The notes beneath the pieces were generated by a model. That model searched no databases. It was not told the DNA's origin and worked only from the letters and a program-made list of their open reading frames with translations. Shown one piece after another: positions 1,411 to 54,364 of a stretch of DNA of 64,000 nt. Within the stretch, counting starts at the first letter, position 1. The number at the start of each line of letters is the position of its first letter. The stretch covers positions 1 through 64,000 of the forward strand of contig JAEEOP010000034.1 in NCBI GenBank assembly GCA_016284295.1. The letters are read 5' to 3'. The position numbers and the translations under genes are program-made. Source of the stretch: Methanomassiliicoccaceae archaeon. GTDB taxonomy: Archaea; Thermoplasmatota; Thermoplasmata; Methanomassiliicoccales; Methanomethylophilaceae.

Positions 1411-2793
1411 ATGACCGCACGCAGATATGTCGATGTTTTCGATACGTACAACCGCTTCGTGGACGGAGACAGGATCCTGGAGAAGGATTGGGACAGCTAC
1501 ATCGTCCCCAATGCGGTAGCTCTGATGAAGAAGCGCTACGGGATCAAGTTCGGCAACAAGATCATCCCTGAGGATCAGGATCTCATCGACCGCCTGTTCG
1601 TCGCGGGTATCGACCTCCTCATCACTACAGGTATCTACAATATAGATACAGGGACACGCATGAAGATCACAGAGGATGAGATCTACGAGGGTCTGAAGAT
1701 GGCCCCCAAGAAGCTTACTCTCGGAGAGGGCAAGGATTCTGTCGAGTGCGCGGCCCGCAGGGGCAACGTCATCAACAAGCCCGTGATAGAGGGCGGACCC
1801 ACCGGAGCCCCTCTTTCCGAGGAGATATATTCTACTGTAATAGAGTCGTACGCGCAGGAGCCTGTCGTCGATTCCATCGTGACCGGTGTGCTAAGCACGG
1901 TCAAGGGCCACACGGCCGTGAAGAACACCCCGTGGGAGGTCAGGGCCACTCTGGCGGAGCTGAGCTATGTCCATAATGCACTGTACTCCGCGGGAAGGCC
2001 GGGTCTTGCCATCTAGGGCCCCCAGACCCCTCTGACTCCGCAGGGACGCATCGTCGCCGACCTGCACGACCAGACGGGTATGAAGCATTCCGATCTCCAT
2101 GAATGCTCCCAGCTGAACGAGCTGAAGATCGACATGTCGATGCTGAACATGATCGCCGCATGGCATATGTCGGGTGACAACATCCTCATCGAGCAGATGC
2201 CTATCGTCGGAGGGTACTGCGGAGGCGTCGAGGAGACCGCCATCTGCGATGTCGCCACATCGATAGCTTCCTTCGCGCTTCTCAACGCGGACATACACCT
2301 GGGCGGACCGATCCATGTGAGGTGGGGTACCACGACCAACAGGCAGTCCCTGCAGGTCGCGGCCCACACGGCCATGGCCCTGGACACTAACACTGATCTT
2401 CTGTTGGCCAACCAGTACTACACCATGGCCGGACCCTGTACGGAGATGAACCTTCTTGAGATCGCCGCCCAGGCCATGTGCGACACCGCATCCGGAAGGG
2501 AGCTGCTCTCGGGAGTGGCATCCGCCAAAGGGGTCAGGATCGATATGGTCACCGGAATGGAGGCCAGGATGATGGGCGAGGCGTCCATGGCCGCATGCGG
2601 CATGGAGGTGTCCGAGGTGAACGACATCGTGGAGAGGGTCCTGAACTGGTATGAGAAATCCTATTACCAGCCTCCCAAGAGCAAGACCTTCCAGGAATCG
2701 TACGATGTGGAGAGCATTAAGCCGAACGCTGAGTACATCTCCGTCTACGACAGCGCTCTGAACATCCTGTCCAACTGCGGTATAGATTTCTGA
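1411..2793 (+). CDS. mtmB: Monomethylamine methyltransferase MtmB with in-frame TAG (pyrrolysine) at 2014-2016
   Basis: ORFs 1411-2016 and 2080-2793 share one frame and are separated only by TAG in GRPGLAI[TAG]GPQTPLTPQG, the known MtmB Pyl position. TGA stop. Confidence 0.96.
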
Positions 2794-2995: not shown

Positions 2996-3066
2996 GGAGG
3001 GCGCTCCGGCGAGCAAACGGGTCTCTAAAACCTGTAAGCGGGGTTCGACCCCCCGGCCTTTCGCCA
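2996..3066 (+). tRNA. pylT: tRNA-Pyl (CUA anticodon), CCA encoded
   Basis: GGAGGGC acceptor pairs with GCCTTTC; D stem GCTC/GAGC with CGGC loop; anticodon arm ACGGGT-CTCTAAA-ACCTGT (6 bp, CTA anticodon); T arm CGGGG-TTCGACC-CCCCG; then G-CCA. Located 17 nt upstream of pylS. Confidence 0.95.
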
Positions 3067-3083
3067 TCATTACGGTAGATAAC

Positions 3084-3905
3084 ATGGGTGTCAAGTTCAC
3101 AGATTCTCAGATACAGCATCTGATGGAATACGGGGACAACGATTGGTCGGATGCTGAGTTCGAGGATGCTGCGGCCAGGGACAAGGAGTTCTCGAGCCAG
3201 TTCTCAAAGCTCAAATCGGCCAACGACAAAGGCCTCAAGGATGTGATCGCCAATCCCCGCAACGACCTGACCGACCTGGAGAACAGAATCAGGGACAAGC
3301 TTAGATCCCGCGGTTTCATCGAGGTGCACACACCCATCTTCGTTTCAAAGGCGGCTCTCGCCAAGATGACCATCACGGAGGACCACCCGCTCTTCAAGCA
3401 GGTCTTCTGGATAGATGACAAGAGGGCCCTCAGGCCCATGCACGCCATGAACCTGTACAGGGTCATGAGGGAGCTCAGGGACCACACCGACGGTCCGGTG
3501 AAGATATTCGAAATCGGATCGTGCTTCAGGAAGGAGTCCAAGAGCTCCACGCATCTGGAGGAGTTCACGATGCTCAACCTGGTCGAGCTCGGACCCGACG
3601 GGGATGCCATGGACCACCTGAAGATGTACATCGACGACATCATGTCCGCCGTAGGCGTGGAGTACACCACATCCCGCGAGGAATCTGACGTTTACGTGGA
3701 GACGCTGGACGTGGAGATCGACGGCACTGAGGTCGCTTCCGGCGCAATAGGCCCGCACAAGCTCGACCCCGCTCACGACATCCACGAGCCCTGGGCAGGA
3801 ATAGGATTCGGTCTCGAGCGCCTGCTCATGCTGAAGAACGGCAAGAGCAACGCGAAGAAGACCGGCAAGAGCATCACATACCTCAACGGATACAAGATGG
3901 ACTGA
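3084..3905 (+). CDS. pylS: Pyrrolysyl-tRNA synthetase, short form without an N-terminal tRNA-binding domain
   Basis: 273 aa from ATG 3084: MGVKFTDSQIQHLMEYG...TITEDHPLFKQVFWIDDKRALRPM...FEIGSCFRKES...EEFTMLNLVE...GIGFGLERLLML. PylRS catalytic domain only. Confidence 0.95.
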   Translation: MGVKFTDSQIQHLMEYGDNDWSDAEFEDAAARDKEFSSQFSKLKSANDKGLKDVIANPRNDLTDLENRIRDKLRSRGFIEVHTPIFVSKAALAKMTITEDHPLFKQVFWIDDKRALRPMHAMNLYRVMRELRDHTDGPVKIFEIGSCFRKESKSSTHLEEFTMLNLVELGPDGDAMDHLKMYIDDIMSAVGVEYTTSREESDVYVETLDVEIDGTEVASGAIGPHKLDPAHDIHEPWAGIGFGLERLLMLKNGKSNAKKTGKSITYLNGYKMD

Positions 3906-3910
3906 TCGCC

Positions 3911-4966
3911 ATGATAGCAGAGACCGTCGCCAAGGCCGAAAGGACAGGGAAGCTGACCACCGACGAGATCTTCGAGCTGATGTCCGCCAAAGACCCTGCG
4001 GACCTCGAGCAGCTTTACGCCGCCGCGAGAAGGGTCAGGGACAGGGAGTTCGGGAAGAAGATCTTCACATACGGTTTCGTATACTTCTCCACATACTGCA
4101 AGAACAACTGCACGTTCTGCTACTACAGGGCAACCAACAACGGCATCGACCGTTACAGGAAGACGAAGGAGGAGATCGTGGAGCTCTCCGCGAGCCTGCA
4201 GGATGCAGGGATAAACCTGTCCGACCTGACGATGGGCGAGGACCCCACGATGTATGCCGACGGCTACTCCAAGCTCCTCGACATAATCTCCTCCGTGCAC
4301 GACGAGGTCGGCATCAACATCATGGCGTCCCCGGGTGCGCTGCCGCAGGAGATGTTCTCGATAGTTAGGGATGCCGGTGCGGATTGGTACGCCTGCTATC
4401 AGGAGACGTACAACAGGCCCCTGTTCGAGAAGCTGAGGCTGAACCAGAGTTACGACGACCGCCGCAACCAGAAGGTCTGGGCCATGGAGGCCGGGCTTCT
4501 GGCGGAGGACGGTATGATGATCGGTCTCGGGGAGTCGGTCAGGGACAGGGCGGAGACCATCCAGGAGATGAGCTCGCTGGGTTGCGGCCAGGTGCGTGCG
4601 ATGACGTTCGTGCCGCAGGTCGGCACCCCTATGCAGGATTTCACACCTTACGATTCGACGGAGGAGCTGAAGGCCATCGCCATCATGAGGCTCCTCAACC
4701 AGGACAAGCTGATCCCGTGCAGCCTCGATGTCGAGGGCATCGCAGGATTGAAGACGAGAATCAACGCCGGGGCCAACGTGGTCACATCCATCGTCCCTCC
4801 CAGCAAGCATCTGGCCGGAGTGGCGCAGCACGAGCTGGACATCGAGAACGGCAACCGTTCCGTCGAGCATGTGTTCGAGATGCTCGAGGACATGGGCCAC
4901 CACCACGCATCCTCGGCGGAGTACAGATCGTTTCTCAACGAGCACAGGCCCAAGAGGGTGGCCTGA
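3911..4966 (+). CDS. pylB: Methylornithine synthase PylB (radical SAM)
   Basis: CKNNCTFCYYR (CxxxCxxC); lies between pylS and pylC. Confidence 0.94.
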   Translation: MIAETVAKAERTGKLTTDEIFELMSAKDPADLEQLYAAARRVRDREFGKKIFTYGFVYFSTYCKNNCTFCYYRATNNGIDRYRKTKEEIVELSASLQDAGINLSDLTMGEDPTMYADGYSKLLDIISSVHDEVGINIMASPGALPQEMFSIVRDAGADWYACYQETYNRPLFEKLRLNQSYDDRRNQKVWAMEAGLLAEDGMMIGLGESVRDRAETIQEMSSLGCGQVRAMTFVPQVGTPMQDFTPYDSTEELKAIAIMRLLNQDKLIPCSLDVEGIAGLKTRINAGANVVTSIVPPSKHLAGVAQHELDIENGNRSVEHVFEMLEDMGHHHASSAEYRSFLNEHRPKRVA

Positions 4967-6126
4967 TGAGGATCGCCATCGTCGGCGGGGCGCTCCAGGG
5001 AATGGAGGCCGTGCTGCTGGCCAAGGCCGCCGGGTACGAGACCATCGTCCTTGACAGGAAACCCGGGGCGCCGGCGATGTCGCTGTGCGACGAACCGATC
5101 AACCTGGATCCCACCAAGGATCCCGAAGGGGCGTTGAGGATCTTCCAGGGATGCGACGCCGTCATACCCGCATGCGAGGAGATGGATCTCCTGAAGGTGC
5201 TGGACGGCATGAAGGACAGGATGGGCGTGCCGCTGCTCTTCGACCTGGCATCGTACAACATCTCAAGTTCCAAGAACAGGTCCAACGAGATCATGGCATC
5301 CGTAGGGGTCCCCCTGCCGCGGCCGTGGCCGGATTGCGGGTTCCCCGCCATAGTGAAGCCCGCCTCCCAGAGCGGGAGCATAGGCGTCAGCGTCGCCTAC
5401 AACGAGGACGATGTGAAGAGGGGGCTGGAGACGGTGAAGGCGTTGCATGACGAACCTGTCATCCAGGAGTTCGTGCACGGCAAGAGCGTGTCCATAGAGG
5501 TCATAGGCAACGGTACCAAGGCCACTTCCTACGTCACCACCGAGGTATGTCTGGATTTCAATTACGATTGCAAGATGGTCAGATGCAACCCCAACATCAT
5601 GTCGCAGGATGACTGCGACCTGTTCGGGAAGATAGGCATCGATGTGGCCGAGGCCATCGGGCTCAACGCCCTGATGGACGTAGAGGCCATACTCACGCCC
5701 AGGGGCCTGAGGGTCCTGGAGATCGATGCACGCATCCCCAGCCAGACACCTGCCGCCATCCAGGCGGCCACGGGGATAAACCTTCTTGAGGAGCTTGTCA
5801 CCACGGCCCTGGGGAAGCCTGCAGGAAGGGGATCTACAGGCGGATGCGCCGTTTACCGCCATATATACCTGAAGAACGGCGAATTGCGTTCCAGCGGAGA
5901 GAAGGAGTTCGGACATGTCGTGAGGCCGAGATTCGAGCCCGGGCTGTTCGGTTCCGAGAACTCCATCACCGATTACGAGCCCGGGAAGGATGAGTGGCAC
6001 GCCACCCTCATAAGCACGGGAAGGACGGAGCAGGAGGCCGACGAGAAGGCGGCCGCATGCATATCCAAGGCCCTGGATGAATGCTCGCTGGATGAGTTCC
6101 TCGACGGAACGCCGGAGATGATCTGA
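4966..6126 (+). CDS. pylC: Pyrrolysine biosynthesis ligase PylC
   Basis: ATP-grasp-like protein MRIAIVGGALQGMEAVLLAKAAGYETIVLDRKPGAPAMSLCDEPI; ATGA overlap with pylB. Confidence 0.93.
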   Translation: MRIAIVGGALQGMEAVLLAKAAGYETIVLDRKPGAPAMSLCDEPINLDPTKDPEGALRIFQGCDAVIPACEEMDLLKVLDGMKDRMGVPLLFDLASYNISSSKNRSNEIMASVGVPLPRPWPDCGFPAIVKPASQSGSIGVSVAYNEDDVKRGLETVKALHDEPVIQEFVHGKSVSIEVIGNGTKATSYVTTEVCLDFNYDCKMVRCNPNIMSQDDCDLFGKIGIDVAEAIGLNALMDVEAILTPRGLRVLEIDARIPSQTPAAIQAATGINLLEELVTTALGKPAGRGSTGGCAVYRHIYLKNGELRSSGEKEFGHVVRPRFEPGLFGSENSITDYEPGKDEWHATLISTGRTEQEADEKAAACISKALDECSLDEFLDGTPEMI

Positions 6127-6935
6127 TGACAAGACTAACGCCCGATCTCATAGAAGGGGTGCCTGATGACACCATAGACCTTGATTCGAAGCTCATGAAG
6201 ATGTGCGGGAAGACCGTGAAGCAGATCGCCCTGGAGGGGGCAGGCGTCGACCACGACGTCGATTTCTCCAAGGTCAGGGTCGCCGTGATCCCCATCACAT
6301 CCGGTATGGGTGTCATCGGCGGATTCTCGCAGTCGGTGGATGCCATCGTCAAGAGGCTCGGCATGCAGAGCTACGTCACAAAGGGCACGGATGTCAACGG
6401 ATTCTCCCAGGCGATCAACGACGGCGTGGACATGATCATGATGGCTGACGATGCGATGTTCGTCGCCTACAACGTCCATGCCGCCAGGAGCACCAACAAC
6501 TCCTGGGGGACCGCGATGGGATATGCGGTGGCGTTGAAGAACGCCGCAGGCGGGGTCAAGGGGAAGGATGTCCTGGTCATCGGCGCCGGCCTCGTCGGTA
6601 CAGAGGCGGTGCAGATCCTCAAGTCCTGGGGAGCCAACGTATCCGTCACGGACATCAAGTTCGAGAAGGCCAAGGCCCTGGAGGAGAAGTTCGGTGTGAA
6701 GGCCCTGCAGGATGTGGAGTCCGCACTGTCGTCCCACAAATACATACTGAACGCCGCACCCGCGATATTCCCCGGAAGGTTGATCATGGAAGGCGCGGTC
6801 GTCTCCACCCCCGGAGTCCCCCATTACTTTGACGAGGAGGGCAGGAAGAAGGCCAAGGCGATCATACACGACCCGCTGGAGATCGGAACTGCGATGATGG
6901 CCGTCAACAGCGCATTGTTCACAATGAAGCAATGA
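6126..6935 (+). CDS. pylD: Pyrrolysine biosynthesis dehydrogenase PylD
   Basis: MTRLTPDLIEGVPDDTIDLDSKL...Rossmann motif VLVIGAGLVGTEAVQIL; overlaps the pylC stop. Confidence 0.93.
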   Translation: MTRLTPDLIEGVPDDTIDLDSKLMKMCGKTVKQIALEGAGVDHDVDFSKVRVAVIPITSGMGVIGGFSQSVDAIVKRLGMQSYVTKGTDVNGFSQAINDGVDMIMMADDAMFVAYNVHAARSTNNSWGTAMGYAVALKNAAGGVKGKDVLVIGAGLVGTEAVQILKSWGANVSVTDIKFEKAKALEEKFGVKALQDVESALSSHKYILNAAPAIFPGRLIMEGAVVSTPGVPHYFDEEGRKKAKAIIHDPLEIGTAMMAVNSALFTMKQ

Positions 6936-8600: not shown

Positions 8601-9650
8601 ATGGACAGGAGCGTCATGAGGGAGACGACCAGGGACTTCACCAGGTACTACAACCCGGAACTCCACGGTGAGCTGAGGCTGGACACCAACACGAACGTCC
8701 TCGGTTCCAACCCAGCTGCGGAGAAGTACCTGCGCGAGAACTCGTGGAACCTCAACGGATACCCCAACACGTACTCCGACGGTCTCAGGCAGGCGCTGGC
8801 TGAACTGTACGGGCTGGAGACGGACAATATCATCGCCGGCAACGGATCTGACGAGATGCTGGATGTCGTATTCAAGACGTTCACCAACATGGGGGACAAC
8901 TCCGTCGTCCCCGTTCCCTCGTACACCCTGTACGATTATTTCGTAAAGCTCAACGGCGGGAAGGTCAACGAGGTCGATCTGACCGAGGACTTCCAGCTGG
9001 ATGTGGACGGCATCGTCAGGAGCGATGCCAAGGTGGCCATCATGCCGTCGCCCAACAACCCCACCGGGAACTGCTTCAGGAGGAAGGACATAGAGGAGAT
9101 CCTCTCCAGGTTCGACGGCATCGTCGTCGTGGATGAGGCGTACACCGAGTATGCGGACGAATCCTTCGTCAGGCGCGTGGAGGAGTTCGACAACCTCATC
9201 GTTCTGAGGACGTTCTCCAAGGCATACGCCATGGCCGCCCTCCGCATAGGATACGCGGTGACCAACAAGTCCCTGGCGGACATGATGCTCTGCGTGAAGA
9301 TCCCCTACTCGCTCAATATGGTGAGCGAGGGAGCGGCCATCGCGGCGGTGAAGGATCAGGAGTTCATCAGGCGCAGCGTGGCCATGGTCAAGGAGCAGAG
9401 GCCCAAGCTCGATGCAGGTCTGAGGAAGCTGGGCTTCGAGACGTTCCCATCGGATTCCAATTTCATACTCGCCAGATCGCCAGTGGACCACAAGGTCCTG
9501 GTGGACGGTCTCAAGCAGCGCGGCGTCCTCATCAGGGACTTCGGCGCGAAGCGCAGGACAGAGAACTGCGTCAGGACGACAGTCGGCACCGAGAAGGACA
9601 ACAGGCTTCTTCTGGAGAAGGCTGAAGAGGTGATCTCAGGATGCCGCTGA
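8601..9650 (+). CDS. hisC: Histidinol-phosphate aminotransferase
   Basis: LDTNTNVLGSNPAA...PSPNNPTGN...RTFSKAYAMAALRIGYAV. Confidence 0.92.
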   Translation: MDRSVMRETTRDFTRYYNPELHGELRLDTNTNVLGSNPAAEKYLRENSWNLNGYPNTYSDGLRQALAELYGLETDNIIAGNGSDEMLDVVFKTFTNMGDNSVVPVPSYTLYDYFVKLNGGKVNEVDLTEDFQLDVDGIVRSDAKVAIMPSPNNPTGNCFRRKDIEEILSRFDGIVVVDEAYTEYADESFVRRVEEFDNLIVLRTFSKAYAMAALRIGYAVTNKSLADMMLCVKIPYSLNMVSEGAAIAAVKDQEFIRRSVAMVKEQRPKLDAGLRKLGFETFPSDSNFILARSPVDHKVLVDGLKQRGVLIRDFGAKRRTENCVRTTVGTEKDNRLLLEKAEEVISGCR

Positions 9651-10246
9651 ACATCTCCATCACCGACTACGGAGTGGGGAACCTCTACTCCATCAAGCAC
9701 TCCCTGATGAACTGCGGAGCCAATGTCACCATCGTCGATGACATCCGCGACGTGCTGGATGCGGAATGCATCGTTTTCCCCGGGGTCGGAGCGTTCGACA
9801 GGACGATGGAGAAGCTCATACCCTACAGGGAGGAGATCTGCAGGATGCTGGCCGACGGAACGCCCGCATTGGGGATATGCATAGGGATGCAGATCCTGTT
9901 CAAAGGCAGTGACGAGGGCACATCGCCCGGTCTCGGATTCTACGACGGCCGTGTCAGGAAGCTCGACTGCAGGATGATCCCCCACATGGGATGGAACCAG
10001 GTCGTCACCGACGATCCTCTGTTCGACGGCATCGCTGACAACAACTTCTACTTCGTGCACTCCTACTACGGGAAGCCAGAGGACGATTCCCTCACGATCG
10101 GCACCACCGAGTACGAGGGCAAGACATTCCAGTCCTTCTTCAGGAAGGGCAACACCTACGGTACCCAGTTCCACCCGGAGAAGAGCAGCGTCTCCGGCAG
10201 GAGGTTCCTCCAGAACTTCATCACCTTCGCGGAGGGTCAGCTGTGA
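9641..10246 (+). CDS. hisH: Imidazole glycerol phosphate synthase subunit HisH
   Basis: DYGVGNLYSIKHSL...GICIGMQILFKGSDEG...GTQFHPEKS. Confidence 0.94.
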   Translation: MPLNISITDYGVGNLYSIKHSLMNCGANVTIVDDIRDVLDAECIVFPGVGAFDRTMEKLIPYREEICRMLADGTPALGICIGMQILFKGSDEGTSPGLGFYDGRVRKLDCRMIPHMGWNQVVTDDPLFDGIADNNFYFVHSYYGKPEDDSLTIGTTEYEGKTFQSFFRKGNTYGTQFHPEKSSVSGRRFLQNFITFAEGQL

Positions 10247-10956
10247 GGATCATCCCCGCTGTCGATGTCATGGACCATCAGGTGGTCCAGCTGGTAGGGG
10301 GAAAACCCGGAAGTCAGCAGATTGTCATACCCGATCCGATGAAGGTCGCATCCTCATGGATCGAGAAGGGCGCGGATTACCTCCACCTTGTAGATCTGGA
10401 TGCCGCGTTCGGCAAGTCGAACAACCTCGAGGTCTTCAAGAGGATAACGAAGGAGCTCGGAGTCCCTACCGAGATCGGAGGGGGCATCAGGGACAGGGAG
10501 ACCATCGACGATCTGGTGTCCGCAGGAGTGGACAGGATCATAGTCGGGACCAAGGCGGTCAAGGAGCCCGAGTGGCTCGAGGAGATGGCCGACCTGCATC
10601 CGGGAAAGATCGTCCTGTCCATGGACACCAAGGCCGGCAAGATCGCCATCAAGGGCTGGCAGGAATCAGCGGGCATGAGCATCGAGGACATGTTCGACAG
10701 GATCAGGGACCTCCCTCTTGCCGCGGTCCTCAACACCAACGTCGACGTCGAAGGTCAGCGCAAGGGGATCGATGAGAAGCAGGCGAGGGACTTCATTGGC
10801 AGATGCCCGTGCAAGGTCATCGCTTCCGGAGGGGTCACGTCGCAGGAGGATGCGAGGATACTCTCGTCGGCTGGAGCGGAATCCGCCGTCGTCGGCCTCG
10901 CGGTGTACACGGACGTCATAAGACCTTGGACTTGGGACACTCCGTGGCATGTTTGA
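10243..10956 (+). CDS. hisA: ProFAR isomerase HisA
   Basis: MRIIPAVDVMDHQVVQLVGGKPGSQ...EIGGGIRD...IASGGVTSQED. Confidence 0.92.
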   Translation: MRIIPAVDVMDHQVVQLVGGKPGSQQIVIPDPMKVASSWIEKGADYLHLVDLDAAFGKSNNLEVFKRITKELGVPTEIGGGIRDRETIDDLVSAGVDRIIVGTKAVKEPEWLEEMADLHPGKIVLSMDTKAGKIAIKGWQESAGMSIEDMFDRIRDLPLAAVLNTNVDVEGQRKGIDEKQARDFIGRCPCKVIASGGVTSQEDARILSSAGAESAVVGLAVYTDVIRPWTWDTPWHV

Positions 10957-11068
10957 GCGATTCCTTCGGTAACACGATTTTGTTAGTGTCTTCATACAGT
11001 CAATATTAACACTCCTTTTTAGTTCTCTTTATATGACATGAGGTAATTGTGAAAATGGAGTTGGCGAA

Positions 11069-11635
11069 TTGAAAATACCATGCGAAATTATAGTTTCACA
11101 CGTGCTTCCGGTGGCCAAAGGGGCCATCGCCAAGGAGCTCGTGATGACGCATGGTATGACGCAGGTCCAAGTCGCCAAGCTTTTCGGTGTTACTAGCGCT
11201 GCCGTTTCCCAGTACCTCAAAGGGGTCCGCGAGTGCGACAGCGTCATAGACAGGAGCGCATACAAGGAGGACTTCCATCAGCTCATCAGGGAGTTGGCCG
11301 TCGATATCGTGCACGGTCTGGAGGTCATGCAGGCATTGTGCATCGTATGTTCGTACGCTTTCGAGAGCGGTCTGATAAAGGCGTTATATGTATTCGAAGG
11401 ATATTCGGCTGACGAGATCGGCTTCATGGACGAACCGATCGTACTGCCGTCAGAGAATGATACGAATGAACTCCGATTACGACAACTGTTCTTTGGTGGT
11501 TGGAAGGTTCCAGCCGCTGCACAAGGGTCACATGGATGTCATCAGCAAGTGTGCCGCAGAGTCCGAGCATATTACTATCGGTATTGGAAGCGCGCAATGC
11601 TCCCACACTGCGGAGAACCCGTTCACCGCCGGTGA
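11069..11635 (+). CDS. HTH transcriptional regulator (archaeal LPxxRxxxAKeLV type)
   Basis: MKIPCEIIVSHVLPVAKGAIAKELVMTHGMTQVQVAKLFGVTSAAVSQYLKG. The C-terminus overlaps nadM out of frame. Confidence 0.75.
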   Translation: MKIPCEIIVSHVLPVAKGAIAKELVMTHGMTQVQVAKLFGVTSAAVSQYLKGVRECDSVIDRSAYKEDFHQLIRELAVDIVHGLEVMQALCIVCSYAFESGLIKALYVFEGYSADEIGFMDEPIVLPSENDTNELRLRQLFFGGWKVPAAAQGSHGCHQQVCRRVRAYYYRYWKRAMLPHCGEPVHRR

Positions 11636-12188
11636 GAGGTACATGATGATCAACAAGTCCCTGAGGGAGGCCGGGATCGACAACTACAGCATCGTGCCCA
11701 TCGAGGACCTCAACAGGTATCCCATCTGGGTGGCCCATGTGGTGTCCCTGGTACCGCCGTTCAGGAGGGTCTATTCCAACAACCCCCTGACCAGGCGCCT
11801 GTTCGAGGAAGCAGGTTTCGATGTCAGGGCATCCCCGCTGTACAACAGGGACATCTTCTCCGGCACGGAGATCAGGAAGAGGATCTGCAACGACGAGGAA
11901 TGGCGCTCCCTGGTGCCCAAGCCTGTGGCCAAGGTCATAGAGGACATCGACGGCGTGAACAGGATCAAGCAGATAAGCAGTGGTTCCGATGGATTCCCGC
12001 TGCGATCCCGTATCGCTCCTCGAGGCCCTGAGGGCCAAGGGCAGGACCATGTCCGCAGCAGAATCGTGCACCGGAGGGATGATAGGTTCGACCATAACCG
12101 ACATCCCTGGCGCATCGGACGTGTTCATGGGCTCGGCGGTGACCTATTCCAACGATGCCAAGGAGAGGGTCCTCGGAGTTTCGCATGA
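11457..12188 (+). CDS. nadM: Nicotinamide-nucleotide adenylyltransferase (archaeal NadM)
   Basis: SLVVGRFQPLHKGHMDVISKC...DIFSGTEIRKRI. The C-terminus beyond about 11980 overlaps the CinA-like gene out of frame. Confidence 0.85.
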   Translation: MIRMNSDYDNCSLVVGRFQPLHKGHMDVISKCAAESEHITIGIGSAQCSHTAENPFTAGERYMMINKSLREAGIDNYSIVPIEDLNRYPIWVAHVVSLVPPFRRVYSNNPLTRRLFEEAGFDVRASPLYNRDIFSGTEIRKRICNDEEWRSLVPKPVAKVIEDIDGVNRIKQISSGSDGFPLRSRIAPRGPEGQGQDHVRSRIVHRRDDRFDHNRHPWRIGRVHGLGGDLFQRCQGEGPRSFA

Positions 12189-12474
12189 TACGCTCCTGGC
12201 CCACGGAGCGGTGAGCGAGGAGACGGCGAGGGAGATGGCCCTCGGTGCGATCAGGGCATACCGCAGCGACTATTCGGTGGCGGTCACCGGCATAGCCGGA
12301 CCGGGCGGGGCCACAGACACCAAGCCTGTCGGCCTGGTGTACATAGCGGTGGCGGACGGCCCGCGCACCGTAGTCGCACGCAACATCTTCAAAGGGGACA
12401 GGGCATCCGTGCGTTCCCAGACGGTGTCGGAGGCGCTGTCGATGCTCAAGGATATGGTGGAGGGAAGATTATGA
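11989..12474 (+). CDS. pncC: CinA C-terminal / nicotinamide-nucleotide amidase (PncC-like)
   Basis: MSAAESCTGGMIGSTITDIPGASDVFMGSAVTYSN...GIAGPGGATDTKPVGLVYI. Confidence 0.87.
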   Translation: MDSRCDPVSLLEALRAKGRTMSAAESCTGGMIGSTITDIPGASDVFMGSAVTYSNDAKERVLGVSHDTLLAHGAVSEETAREMALGAIRAYRSDYSVAVTGIAGPGGATDTKPVGLVYIAVADGPRTVVARNIFKGDRASVRSQTVSEALSMLKDMVEGRL

Positions 12475-13136
12475 GGTTCGAACGTCAGTTGCCTGTATTC
12501 GGAGAGGAAGGTCAGAATAGGATCATGTCCGCTGTGGTGGGCGTGGTCGGATGCGGAGGTCTGGGGGTGAACGTCATCACGCAGCTCTGCGCTGCCGGCG
12601 TCACCCATTTCATCCTGTGCGACCATAGGACTCCGGAGCTTCCCGATCTGAACAGGCAGTTCATCTATGCCGCGGGGGACTACAGGCCTAAGTCGGTCAT
12701 CTCGGCCGAATGGATCCTAGCTCTCAACCCCAGTGCCGAGGTGCAGTCCAACGCGGAGCCCCTCACAGAGTTGAACGGCGACCTGTTCAGCGGATGCGAC
12801 ATCCTCGTGGACTGCCTGGATTCCAACGAATCCAAACTGATACTGTCCGACCTGGCGGAGAGGATGGGTGTCCCCGTTGTGCACGGCGGGGTCAACGGGC
12901 TGGTAGGACAGATCGCAGTATGCGTTCCCGGAAGGACGAAGAGCCTCAGGGAGGTCGTCGGGGACAAGGCCGATCAGGACATCATAGTCCCCTCGGTAGG
13001 CGCAGCTACCGCCAACATAGCCTCCATGCAGGCGCTGGAAGTCCTGAAGATCATCTCGGGCATCGGCACCGACAACGAGGGCAAGCTCATAACGGTCGAT
13101 ATGAGGTCCTGGACCATCGGCACGGAGACGTTCTAA
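12471..13136 (+). CDS. ThiF/MoeB/E1-like adenylyltransferase
   Basis: MRFERQLPVFGEEGQNRIMSAVVGVVGCGGLG...DCLDSNESK. TAA stop. Confidence 0.88.
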   Translation: MRFERQLPVFGEEGQNRIMSAVVGVVGCGGLGVNVITQLCAAGVTHFILCDHRTPELPDLNRQFIYAAGDYRPKSVISAEWILALNPSAEVQSNAEPLTELNGDLFSGCDILVDCLDSNESKLILSDLAERMGVPVVHGGVNGLVGQIAVCVPGRTKSLREVVGDKADQDIIVPSVGAATANIASMQALEVLKIISGIGTDNEGKLITVDMRSWTIGTETF

Positions 13137-23359: not shown

Positions 23360-24709
23360 TCATCTCTTATCGAGATCCTCATATTGCCTGGGAGCCTGGA
23401 TGTTCACATAGGCGGGTCTGACGATCTTGTTGGAAGTGATCAGCTCTTCGATCCTGTGCGCGCTCCATCCGACTATCCTCGCGGTGGCGAAGAGAGGGGT
23501 GTAGAGCTCCTTGGGTATGCCCAGCATGTTGTACACGAATCCGCTGTAGAAGTCCACGTTGGCGCACACGCTCTTGTTGTTGTGCTTGTGTGCCATGACG
23601 AGGCCGGGCGCGATGCGCTCGATGTTGCGGTAATACTTGAAGTCGTCGAGACGGCCCTTCTCCCTTGCCAGATCCTCGACGAAGGACTTGAAAACGTTCG
23701 CCCTGGGGTCGGATTTGGTGTAGATCGCGTGTCCCATGCCGTAGATCAGACCGGTCCTGTCGAAGGCCTCTTTGTTGAGTATCTTGTTGAGATAGGCGGT
23801 GAGGGCCTCCTCGTCATCGGGGTCCTTGACGTGGGCCTATATGTCGACCATCATGTCGATCACCTTCAGGTTGGCCCCTCCGTGCTTGGGTCCTTTCAGG
23901 GAGGACATGGCGGCGGCGATGACCGCGTAGGTATCGGATCCGCTGGATGTGGTGACCCTGGTGGTGAATGTCGAGTTGTTCCCTCCGCCGTGCTCCATGT
24001 GGATCACGAGGGCGAGGTCCAGGACGGTTGCCTCCAACTTGGTGTACTGCATGTCCGGGCGGAGCATCCTGAGGAAGTTCTCCGCGGACGAGAGGCTGGG
24101 GTCCGGGTTGTGGATGTACATGCTCTGGTTGTTGATGTAGTGGTTGTACGCGTGGTAGCTGTACACCGAGAGCATGGGGAAGACCGTGATGAGGTACAGG
24201 CACTGCCTGAGGACGTTGTCGAGCGAGTTGTCAAGGGCTTCGTCGTCGTATGATGCGAGGAATAGCACCTCCCTGGAGATGGCGTTCATCAGGTCCTTGT
24301 TGGCGGCCTTCATGATGACATCCCTGGTGAAGGTCTTGGGCAGCTCGCGGTTGCTGTTGATGATGCTGATGTACTCCTCCAGTTCCTCCTTGTTGGGGAG
24401 CTTACCGAAGAGGACCAGATAGGATATCTCCTCGAAGCCGAACCTCTTGTTGAGGAATCCCCTGGTGAGGTCCTCGATGCTGTATCCGCGGTAGCGGAGG
24501 ATCCCCTCGCATTCCGTCTTCGCACCGTCCACCATGACGGTGCCGTCGACCTGGGAGATCTCGGTCAGGCCCACTATGACCCCGTTCCCGTTGGAGTCGC
24601 GGAGCCCTTTCTTCACATCGTACCTGGAGTATTCCGAAGGCTCGAACGAATCGCTCTCCTGACAAAGATTGCATTTGGATTCAATGAATGATTCGTAGAC
24701 CTTCTTCAT
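23360..24709 (-). CDS. Citrate synthase with in-frame TAG at 23839-23837 (candidate pyrrolysine)
   Basis: ORFs 23837-24709 and 23360-23737 share the frame; between them: GPKHGGANLKVIDMMVDI[TAG]AHVKDPDDEEALTAYLNKILNKEAFDRTGLIYGMGHAIYTKSDPRA. All citrate synthase motifs remain in register. TGA stop. Confidence 0.88.
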
Positions 24710-48591: not shown

Positions 48592-49323
48592 CTAATAGAG
48601 GTCAAGGTAGCGTTGGACATCGGATTCGGGATATCCGAGTATCTCTGACAGCCTGGAGCTGTCAAGTCCGACATCGGCGAGGGCCTCCTTCATGCGAACG
48701 GTATCGACGGCACATGTTATATCATATTCTCCGGAGGCAGATCGGCGATACCTGTCGAAGCATCCGTAGGTGTCTATCAGCTTGTTCGCACGGGTCTTGG
48801 CGATGAACGTCTCCAGGCGTCTCCTGAACTCATCGGGCCTGTCCCTTGCAGCATCAATGTGAGCGATCCTGACCCTCCTGTATGGTGCCGGGAAGGACTG
48901 GTAGTTGGACCATGCCGCAGGATCCCTGCGGATCTCATCGAGGATGTCCTCAGGAAAGATGTATTCGGATTCGATGATGCTCTTCACCTGCTCCCTGATT
49001 TTCGGATGGATCATCCCCTGCGAGTCCAGCCAGATGAGCCGCTCGATGTTCAGACGCGAATAGGGGCTGCTCCTCCTTCTGGGGGTGAAGCGTCTGAGAT
49101 AGGTGGTTTCGTCATAATGGTCGAGCATCCCGTCTATCCATCCGAAGCAGAGGGCCTCTTCCACGGAATCGTTGTATGGTACGGAAGGCTATCCGGATTC
49201 CTTGGGCGGGTAGGCGAACCATATCTCGTCCGCGGCCTCGTAGTTCTCCTCCAGCCATCCGCGCCATTCCCTGCGGTCCTCGGCGCAGATCACCGTCCTT
49301 CCGGATGCATCCTTGAATATCAT
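48592..49323 (-). CDS. YdeI/OmpD-associated (COG4430-type) protein with in-frame TAG at 49191-49189; TAG also at the apparent end (48594-48592)
   Basis: From ATG 49323: MIFKDASGRTVICAEDRREWRGWLEENYEAADEIWFAYPPKESG[TAG]PSVPYNDSVEEALCFGWIDGMLDHYDETTYLRRFTPRRRSSPYSRLN...DPAAWSNYQSFPAPYRR. The family core spans the TAG in one frame. Confidence 0.82.
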
Positions 49324-53014: not shown

Positions 53015-54364
53015 ATGGCAGTCAACAAGACTTATGTCGTGATTGCGATAGTCGCCATAGCTCTTGTAGCGATCATCTGCAGTGCGACACTACTGATGAA
53101 TAATAACGATGGTTACAAGGACATCACCCCTACCGGGAATGTCAAGGTCCTTGGTAACGCCAACAACGACGATTTCATCAACGATGAAGACGTCAAGCTC
53201 CTCAACAAGATCATAAAGGACGGTTCTTGGGACAAGACCAAATATCCCTACGCAGACGCCAACAACGACGGTTCCATCACGGATGCCGATGTCGCATTGG
53301 TGCAGAAGATAATCAAGGGTGAATCATGCCAGGTCCGTTACATCGACATCTATGACAGGATCTCTACCGTCAATTACCCCGTTTCCCACAGCCGTATCGG
53401 AGTCTCCTATTGGCAGCAGGCGGAATTGGCCACACTGCTCGGATGCTGGCCCAATGTGGTTCTTGCAAGCATGTCTACAACGGATTCCAACTCCCACAGG
53501 TATGATACCAGCAACATCCAGAAATCATTCAAAGGCAGCAACATCACCACCGAGCTGATCCTCGAATGCGATTGCGATCTCGTCATCGCAAGCCAGGGGA
53601 AGAGCAACGTCGTCGATCCCGCGGCAGCGGCCAAATCAACCGTCACACCGTTCTATGTCGATGTGTCCAAGAGCTCGACCTATGTCAGCACCGTCCTCAC
53701 CCTGGGTGTTCTGATCAACGAGAATGAAAAGGCGCAGGCCTATGCCAATTACGTCAACGGTCTCCTGGATAAGATCGAGAACGGAATGAAGAAAGTCTCG
53801 CAGAAGGCAAGTTCGGTCATAACCCTCATGTATGCCAACCAGTCCACCCGTGCCAATATCATCATCGAATGCGAGGGCACCGGAGCGGCGGACATGATCG
53901 GGCTGATCAGCGATGTCTATGATTCGTCGACCAAATCCGCCAGCAACAACAGGCTGGAGGTGGAGAAGGATTGGTTCATCCAGAACGATGGCAAGGAATT
54001 CGATTTCATCATAGTCCAGCAGGAAGGCACCGATACGAAGAAGGTCGACGGGACCTACTACACTCCGCAGATGTACAACGACAGATTCGAGGAAGCGATC
54101 ACGTACTACGACAGGACTAGCGCATACACCGAGGGAAAGATCCTTGGAACAACGTTCTCATACAACTCCTTCGGAGGATTCGCCAATCTCATGTACCTTG
54201 CATACCTCCTGTATCCTGCTGTGTTCAGCGCGGAAGACGGATGGAAAGCCCTTCAGGAATACTTCGATAATTTCACCACAGCGAAGATCGATGTCAAGAA
54301 GCAGGGCGGATGGTTCTACACCGGAAGCGCATACAAGGAATACAACAACAGGCTGAAGGCCTGA
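53015..54364 (+). CDS. ABC transporter substrate-binding protein with N-terminal dockerin-like domain
   Basis: N-terminal TM; two dockerin-like repeats GNANNDDFINDEDVKLLNKII and ADANNDGSITDADVALVQKII; then an Fe/cobalamin-type periplasmic binding fold. Confidence 0.8.
   Translation: MAVNKTYVVIAIVAIALVAIICSATLLMNNNDGYKDITPTGNVKVLGNANNDDFINDEDVKLLNKIIKDGSWDKTKYPYADANNDGSITDADVALVQKIIKGESCQVRYIDIYDRISTVNYPVSHSRIGVSYWQQAELATLLGCWPNVVLASMSTTDSNSHRYDTSNIQKSFKGSNITTELILECDCDLVIASQGKSNVVDPAAAAKSTVTPFYVDVSKSSTYVSTVLTLGVLINENEKAQAYANYVNGLLDKIENGMKKVSQKASSVITLMYANQSTRANIIIECEGTGAADMIGLISDVYDSSTKSASNNRLEVEKDWFIQNDGKEFDFIIVQQEGTDTKKVDGTYYTPQMYNDRFEEAITYYDRTSAYTEGKILGTTFSYNSFGGFANLMYLAYLLYPAVFSAEDGWKALQEYFDNFTTAKIDVKKQGGWFYTGSAYKEYNNRLKA

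Follow-up and report, generated by a model that had tools for sequence, protein, structure and literature searches.

The locus studied here, from a gut-type methanogen, raises the question of whether a TAG in the middle of a citrate synthase gene ends translation, as this codon normally does, or is read as pyrrolysine (Pyl), the 22nd amino acid, as the initial annotation had proposed. The gene lies on the minus strand of the window, the whole 64,000-nucleotide stretch of Methanomassiliicoccaceae archaeon contig JAEEOP010000034.1 (assembly GCA_016284295.1) that was analysed. Its frame, from 24709 to 23360, comprises 450 codons with exactly two stops, the TAG at codon 291 (23839-23837) and a terminal TGA at codon 450, and a Shine-Dalgarno-like GAGGTG motif is found upstream of the ATG at 24709. 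Read across the TAG, the frame matches the Pfam domain Citrate_synt (PF00285) over residues 42-433 with 384.8 bits, compared with 223.2 and 152.5 bits for the separate halves, and the NCBIfam citrate synthase model NF010635 matches the joined protein over its full length with 679.8 bits against a cut-off of 426. The catalytic residues H276, H327 and D386 flank TAG291 on both sides and are invariant in the alignment. Measured against both families, the protein thus has the full-length match and the invariant His/His/Asp and differs by the TAG at codon 291; by homology it is a citrate synthase, with enzyme activity predicted.

The structure of the frame agrees with what had been described for it at the outset. 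A single TAG interrupts 449 amino acids of an otherwise whole citrate synthase, the domain runs across it, and no second lesion is present between 24709 and the closing TGA. The next possible start 3' of TAG291, whichever start codon is allowed, is an ATG at codon 325, within the conserved GMGH motif and after 33 codons lacking a start, which rules out a separate downstream gene and bears out the earlier judgement that this is one gene and not two. That every internal stop is a TAG carries less weight as stand-alone proof, because 87 of the 147 one-base nonsense mutations possible in this gene produce TAG (41 produce TAA and 19 TGA); a lone TAG is therefore not decisive, and the case rests on comparative evidence.

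The apparatus that would decode the TAG is encoded about 20 kb away on the plus strand (2996-6935), where the full pyl cassette reported by the initial annotation was recovered. It consists of pylT (2996-3066), a tRNA-Pyl with anticodon CUA detected by ARAGORN; pylS (3081-3905), a short-type pyrrolysyl-tRNA synthetase that lacks the N-terminal domain (TIGR02367, 260.9 bits, cut-off 178.15); pylB (3911-4966), methylornithine synthase (TIGR03910, 437.7 bits); pylC (4966-6126), 3-methylornithine-lysine ligase (TIGR03909, 313.8 bits); and pylD (6126-6935), the pyrrolysine-forming dehydrogenase (TIGR03911, 201.2 bits). All four proteins, encoded at 3081-6935, exceed the NCBIfam cut-offs, PylS through a model of its C-terminal domain. 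Adjacent to the cassette, the monomethylamine methyltransferase gene mtmB (1411-2793, plus strand; PF05369 spans residues 7-458) carries the expected in-frame TAG at codon 202 (2014-2016) and serves as an internal positive control representing a known type of Pyl protein. PylS was present in nearly all genus genomes searched, and the two without a strong match are incomplete (61% and 82%) and both still have pylD. With respect to termination, the source genome encodes one match above the aRF1 cut-off and a second, weak match below it.

Two further loci of the window may be recorded here. A gene for a YdeI/OmdA-family protein (48592-49323, minus strand) is split under table 11 by an internal TAG near its N-terminus (49191-49189), and its frame reaches a second TAG (48594-48592), beyond which it extends for 98 codons whose coding character is doubtful. 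At 53015-54364 on the plus strand, upstream of permease and ATPase genes, lies a gene for a putative ABC substrate-binding protein; by eye, a dockerin-like pair of calcium-binding repeats appears to be present in the N-terminal part of this protein.

We assessed TAG usage with a custom gene caller in a 383-kb sample, about a fifth of the genome, so that genome-wide counts are estimates. Under table 11, frames in this sample ended in TGA 316 times, in TAA 22 times and in TAG 14 times. Coding continuation of at least 40 codons past the stop was observed for 10 of the 14 TAG-ended frames compared with 39 of the 338 TAA/TGA-ended frames; a slightly different continuation measure gave 10/14 versus 30/338 (Fisher p = 9e-8), and removal of two stretches chosen for their TAG genes left 4/8 versus 32/266 (p = 0.012). 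A single Pfam domain extended across the TAG in seven of the ten continuations, compared with none of 20 TAA/TGA continuations (p = 6e-5), these 20 being the ones with the longest gap to a start or the highest score; where TAA/TGA continuations had domain matches, they resembled neighbouring genes in one frame. The seven domain-spanned TAGs fall in both citrate synthases of the genome, MtmB, O-acetylhomoserine sulfhydrylase, FolP, an SbcD-like nuclease and a corrin methylase domain, while an SbcC-like protein has two ATPase halves, one on each side of its TAG. Matches that seemed to place a TGA inside FolP were discarded as ordinary C-terminal stops at codon 262-263 of 266. A few other TAG-ended frames look terminal, although at PurD and CobB the terminating TAG is followed by a TGA no more than one codon later. 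When a genome of the same family without pylS or pylD matches (G034) was evaluated, only 1 of 12 TAG-ended frames continued, compared with 16 of 23 in two pyl-positive genomes (p = 0.0009). Judged by coding continuity, this genus effectively uses TAG as a sense codon.

Citrate synthase itself was matched in 31 of 31 genus genomes, and its orthologue contains one TAG in eight of them and a TAA or TGA in none. The TAG occupies codon 291 in the source genome and in no other of the 31, codon 13 in G030 and G018, and aligned codon 54-58 (hereafter codon 55) in G026, G025, G017, G029 and G006. In the tree, the five TAG55 species group together (support 97/90), as does the TAG13 pair (100/100), so that three gains suffice; the alignment and tree are consistent with three independent gains of TAG in citrate synthase, one per site. 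Within the TAG55 group pS reaches 0.67, and pN/pS is 0.08-0.24 past the TAG and ranges before it from 0.13 among the four closer species to 0.26 among all five. That TAG55 has been kept over this much divergence, with constraint acting on both halves, is strong comparative evidence that it is translated. Shorter citrate synthases begin close to this position; a restart 3' of TAG55 in the sister species was nevertheless ruled out by purifying selection on residues 1-54. One TAG55 genome, G006 (82% complete), has no strong pylS match and a divergent pylD (49%), and possibly possesses a different pyl cassette.

We next consider the residue that TAG291 replaced, which we took from aligned relatives instead of the bacterial homologues on which the initial annotation had relied. 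In the alignment of genus and family homologues (orthologues and paralogues pooled), 35 sequences have a residue at this position, Lys in 20 and Arg in 15; two homologues from the order level, which are more distant, show a gap. The codon of the eight nearest relatives (81-84% identical) is AAG in five and AGG in three; AAG is one base change from TAG and AGG two. The alignments support a basic ancestral residue, and TAG291 most likely derived from a lysine AAG codon. The earlier suggestion that the site appears to be Lys, one step from TAG, is thus supported as to a basic ancestral residue. Its corollary, that lysine ancestry points to Pyl, we have dropped as a general rule, since other TAG sites of the same genome replace Glu, Gln or mixed residues: the O-acetylhomoserine sulfhydrylase TAG, also found in G018, aligns with GAG/CAG in relatives, the SbcD-like TAG with GAG in the closest relatives, and the FolP TAG with AGG/AAG/TCG/TGG and others. 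Because TAG replaces such varied codons elsewhere, the sites look like opportunistic substitutions, and neutral uptake of a codon turned sense would be the simplest account of them. The special status that the initial annotation implied for the citrate synthase TAG is likewise unsupported; many ordinary genes of the genus contain such a TAG.

Several TAG-bearing loci outside the window are of interest in their own right. The second citrate synthase belongs to three neighbouring TAG genes at C21:26643-32968, namely the citrate synthase paralogue (L031:6644-7972, minus strand), the SbcD-like nuclease (8723-9850, plus strand) and the SbcC-like ATPase (9868-12969, plus strand); identity between the SbcD-like protein and its congeners does not exceed 54%, and the citrate synthase paralogue sits on a long branch, suggesting that this locus may be acquired or fast-evolving. 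At codon 302 of O-acetylhomoserine sulfhydrylase, the source genome and G018 have a TAG in common, whereas G007, whose protein is 96% identical to that of the source genome, has CAG there; gene transfer or parallel gain could explain this pattern. G007 also contains, at C1:1000001-1020000, very large NRPS-like frames joined by TAG (2296 + 970 and 1067 + 2367 codons). Two cobalamin genes on the minus strand are affected as well, a CbiJ-corrin methylase fusion with an internal TAG (L054:2995-4968) and a cobyrinate synthase-like gene whose terminal TAG is immediately followed by a TGA (L054:1649-2998), so that Pyl may in turn be required for making B12, on which methylamine use relies.

Our preferred reading, which we regard as very probable, is that codon 291 is translated as pyrrolysine via tRNA-Pyl and PylS and that the resulting enzyme works, both Pyl insertion and activity being what we infer from the comparisons above. 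The central proposal of the initial annotation, a Pyl-containing citrate synthase, is retained in that the TAG is read as sense, most likely as Pyl, and is separated from the lysine argument and the special status attached to it. Mechanistically, the tRNA-Pyl/PylS pair encoded 20 kb off would insert Pyl at codon 291; with the cassette present and TAG scarce as a terminator, in-frame TAGs would arise by substitution and persist in housekeeping genes; and Pyl at residue 291 would be tolerated and not chemically used. With a TAG in the catalytic core of both citrate synthases of the genome, the making of citrate should then hinge on the supply of Pyl. A catalytic Pyl is unlikely, as species differ in where the TAG lies and as residue 291 is predicted to be close to the C-terminal end of a helix (279-293), confidently modelled in a structure predicted from a 13-sequence alignment (mean pLDDT 79). 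The comparison with MtmB is instructive in this regard. Both proteins are encoded in the same window with an in-frame TAG, read as Pyl in MtmB and predicted to be so in citrate synthase; however, the Pyl of MtmB is catalytic and conserved in position, whereas the citrate synthase TAG, in place of one active-site position, shifts among codons 13, 55 and 291 and is absent from most orthologues.

The alternative that survives best, although we give it only a slight chance, is a recent nonsense mutation or pseudogene, in which case the strain has lost the function of the gene and makes no more than a fragment of 290 aa. TAG291 does occur in just one of the 31 genus genomes, and TAG is the commonest outcome of one-step nonsense mutation (87/147). 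In place of the several lesions or relaxed constraint of a pseudogene, however, we found one TAG and a dN/dS of 0.11-0.20 after it (against seven relatives), about equal to the 0.07-0.14 before it, values that with a single carrier reflect mostly pre-TAG history; the same pattern is moreover repeated in many genes. The sole other citrate synthase of the genome (C21:26649-27968; a protein search returned no third) has a TAG of its own at codon 370, where paralogues of other species have Arg. The initial annotation had named a second intact citrate synthase together with lesions here as an outcome that would count against it; instead the second copy carries a TAG and the present gene no further lesion. 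Termination at TAG would leave the genome without a citrate synthase of the type covered by the search, and this enzyme would have been lost while an AcnA-type aconitase stayed intact alongside two isocitrate/homoisocitrate-dehydrogenase-like genes; from this gene content the route from citrate to 2-oxoglutarate looks retained. In two near-complete assemblies, that of G030 in a single contig and that of G018 in 8 contigs, the only citrate synthase bears TAG13.

A still less probable explanation is that the TAG is read through by near-cognate tRNAs as Gln, Lys or Tyr. The sequence data report sense reading and leave the identity of the residue invisible in DNA, and the identity of the tRNA-Pyl alone is no proof of Pyl over another residue at 291; yet a dedicated CUA tRNA and its synthetase are encoded, and coding continuation past TAG is gone in the pyl-negative G034. 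We assign an equally slender chance to a dual product, in which the TAG acts in part as a stop and the ratio of short to full-length citrate synthase is set by Pyl supply as a form of regulation. A release factor is encoded and incomplete suppression is known for Pyl genes, both in favour of this scheme, but the 290-aa form would be without catalytic H327 and D386 and cannot be an enzyme, and TAG positions that differ by species (13, 55, 291) argue against a conserved switch. Least probable of all is an assembly or sequencing error, for although codon 291 TAG is known from a single assembly of the species, a 45-contig draft, equivalent TAGs occur in other genus genomes, including single-contig G030, and two further genes of the window have an in-frame TAG.

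Translation of codon 291 as Pyl fits with what has been described for archaea that encode this amino acid. An archaeal code in which all TAG codons are read as pyrrolysine has reportedly been presented, with proteomic support, by Kivenson and colleagues in Science in 2025, and the reading given here shares with that work the general claim that TAG is an ordinary Pyl codon in some archaea. Closer at hand, Ca. Methanomethylophilus alvus has 16 predicted Pyl proteins besides the methylamine methyltransferases, including Cas1, MtxX and digeranylgeranylglyceryl phosphate synthase (Borrel et al. 2014, PMC4153887, Table 7), and TAG makes up 1.6% of its stops (PMC4153887). That archaeon belongs to the same order and shares with ours the TAG-interrupted coding sequences outside the methyltransferases, the rare TAG stops and the interpretation given to them (PMC4153887). 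Citrate synthase, however, is not in its Table 7 and goes unmentioned in the searched main text of PMC4153887, and the present case adds a genus-wide alignment, two-sided selection and a pyl-negative control. For methanogenic archaeon ISO4-H5, a ruminal member of the Methanomassiliicoccales with pylTSBCD, in-frame amber codons are reported in 46 genes, with TAG in metabolic genes such as those for adenylate kinase, phosphoglucose/phosphomannose isomerase and MtaC, and the term 'citrate synthase' is absent from the main text (PMC5011839). In-frame TAG in non-methylamine genes has thus already been reported for the order, and citrate synthase is a new, well-supported case.

Collectively, these sequence data by themselves indicate that, within one genus, TAG repeatedly entered the gene of a core anabolic enzyme. 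A practical consequence is that automated annotation under table 11 splits or drops TAG-containing genes in these methanogens. A more far-reaching proposal, which we put forward tentatively and consider rather doubtful, is that TAG is fully reassigned in the genus, each TAG in a real gene denoting Pyl and true TAG terminators being gone or backed by an adjacent TGA, and that citrate and glutamate-family synthesis became obligately Pyl-dependent at least three separate times, locking the cassette in even without methylamine use. Pyl insertions of this kind have been proposed to make the Pyl cassette potentially essential (Borrel et al. 2014, PMC4153887). The citrate synthases may represent such a ratchet step from facultative to obligatory code expansion, for once both need Pyl, the cassette would no longer be losable.
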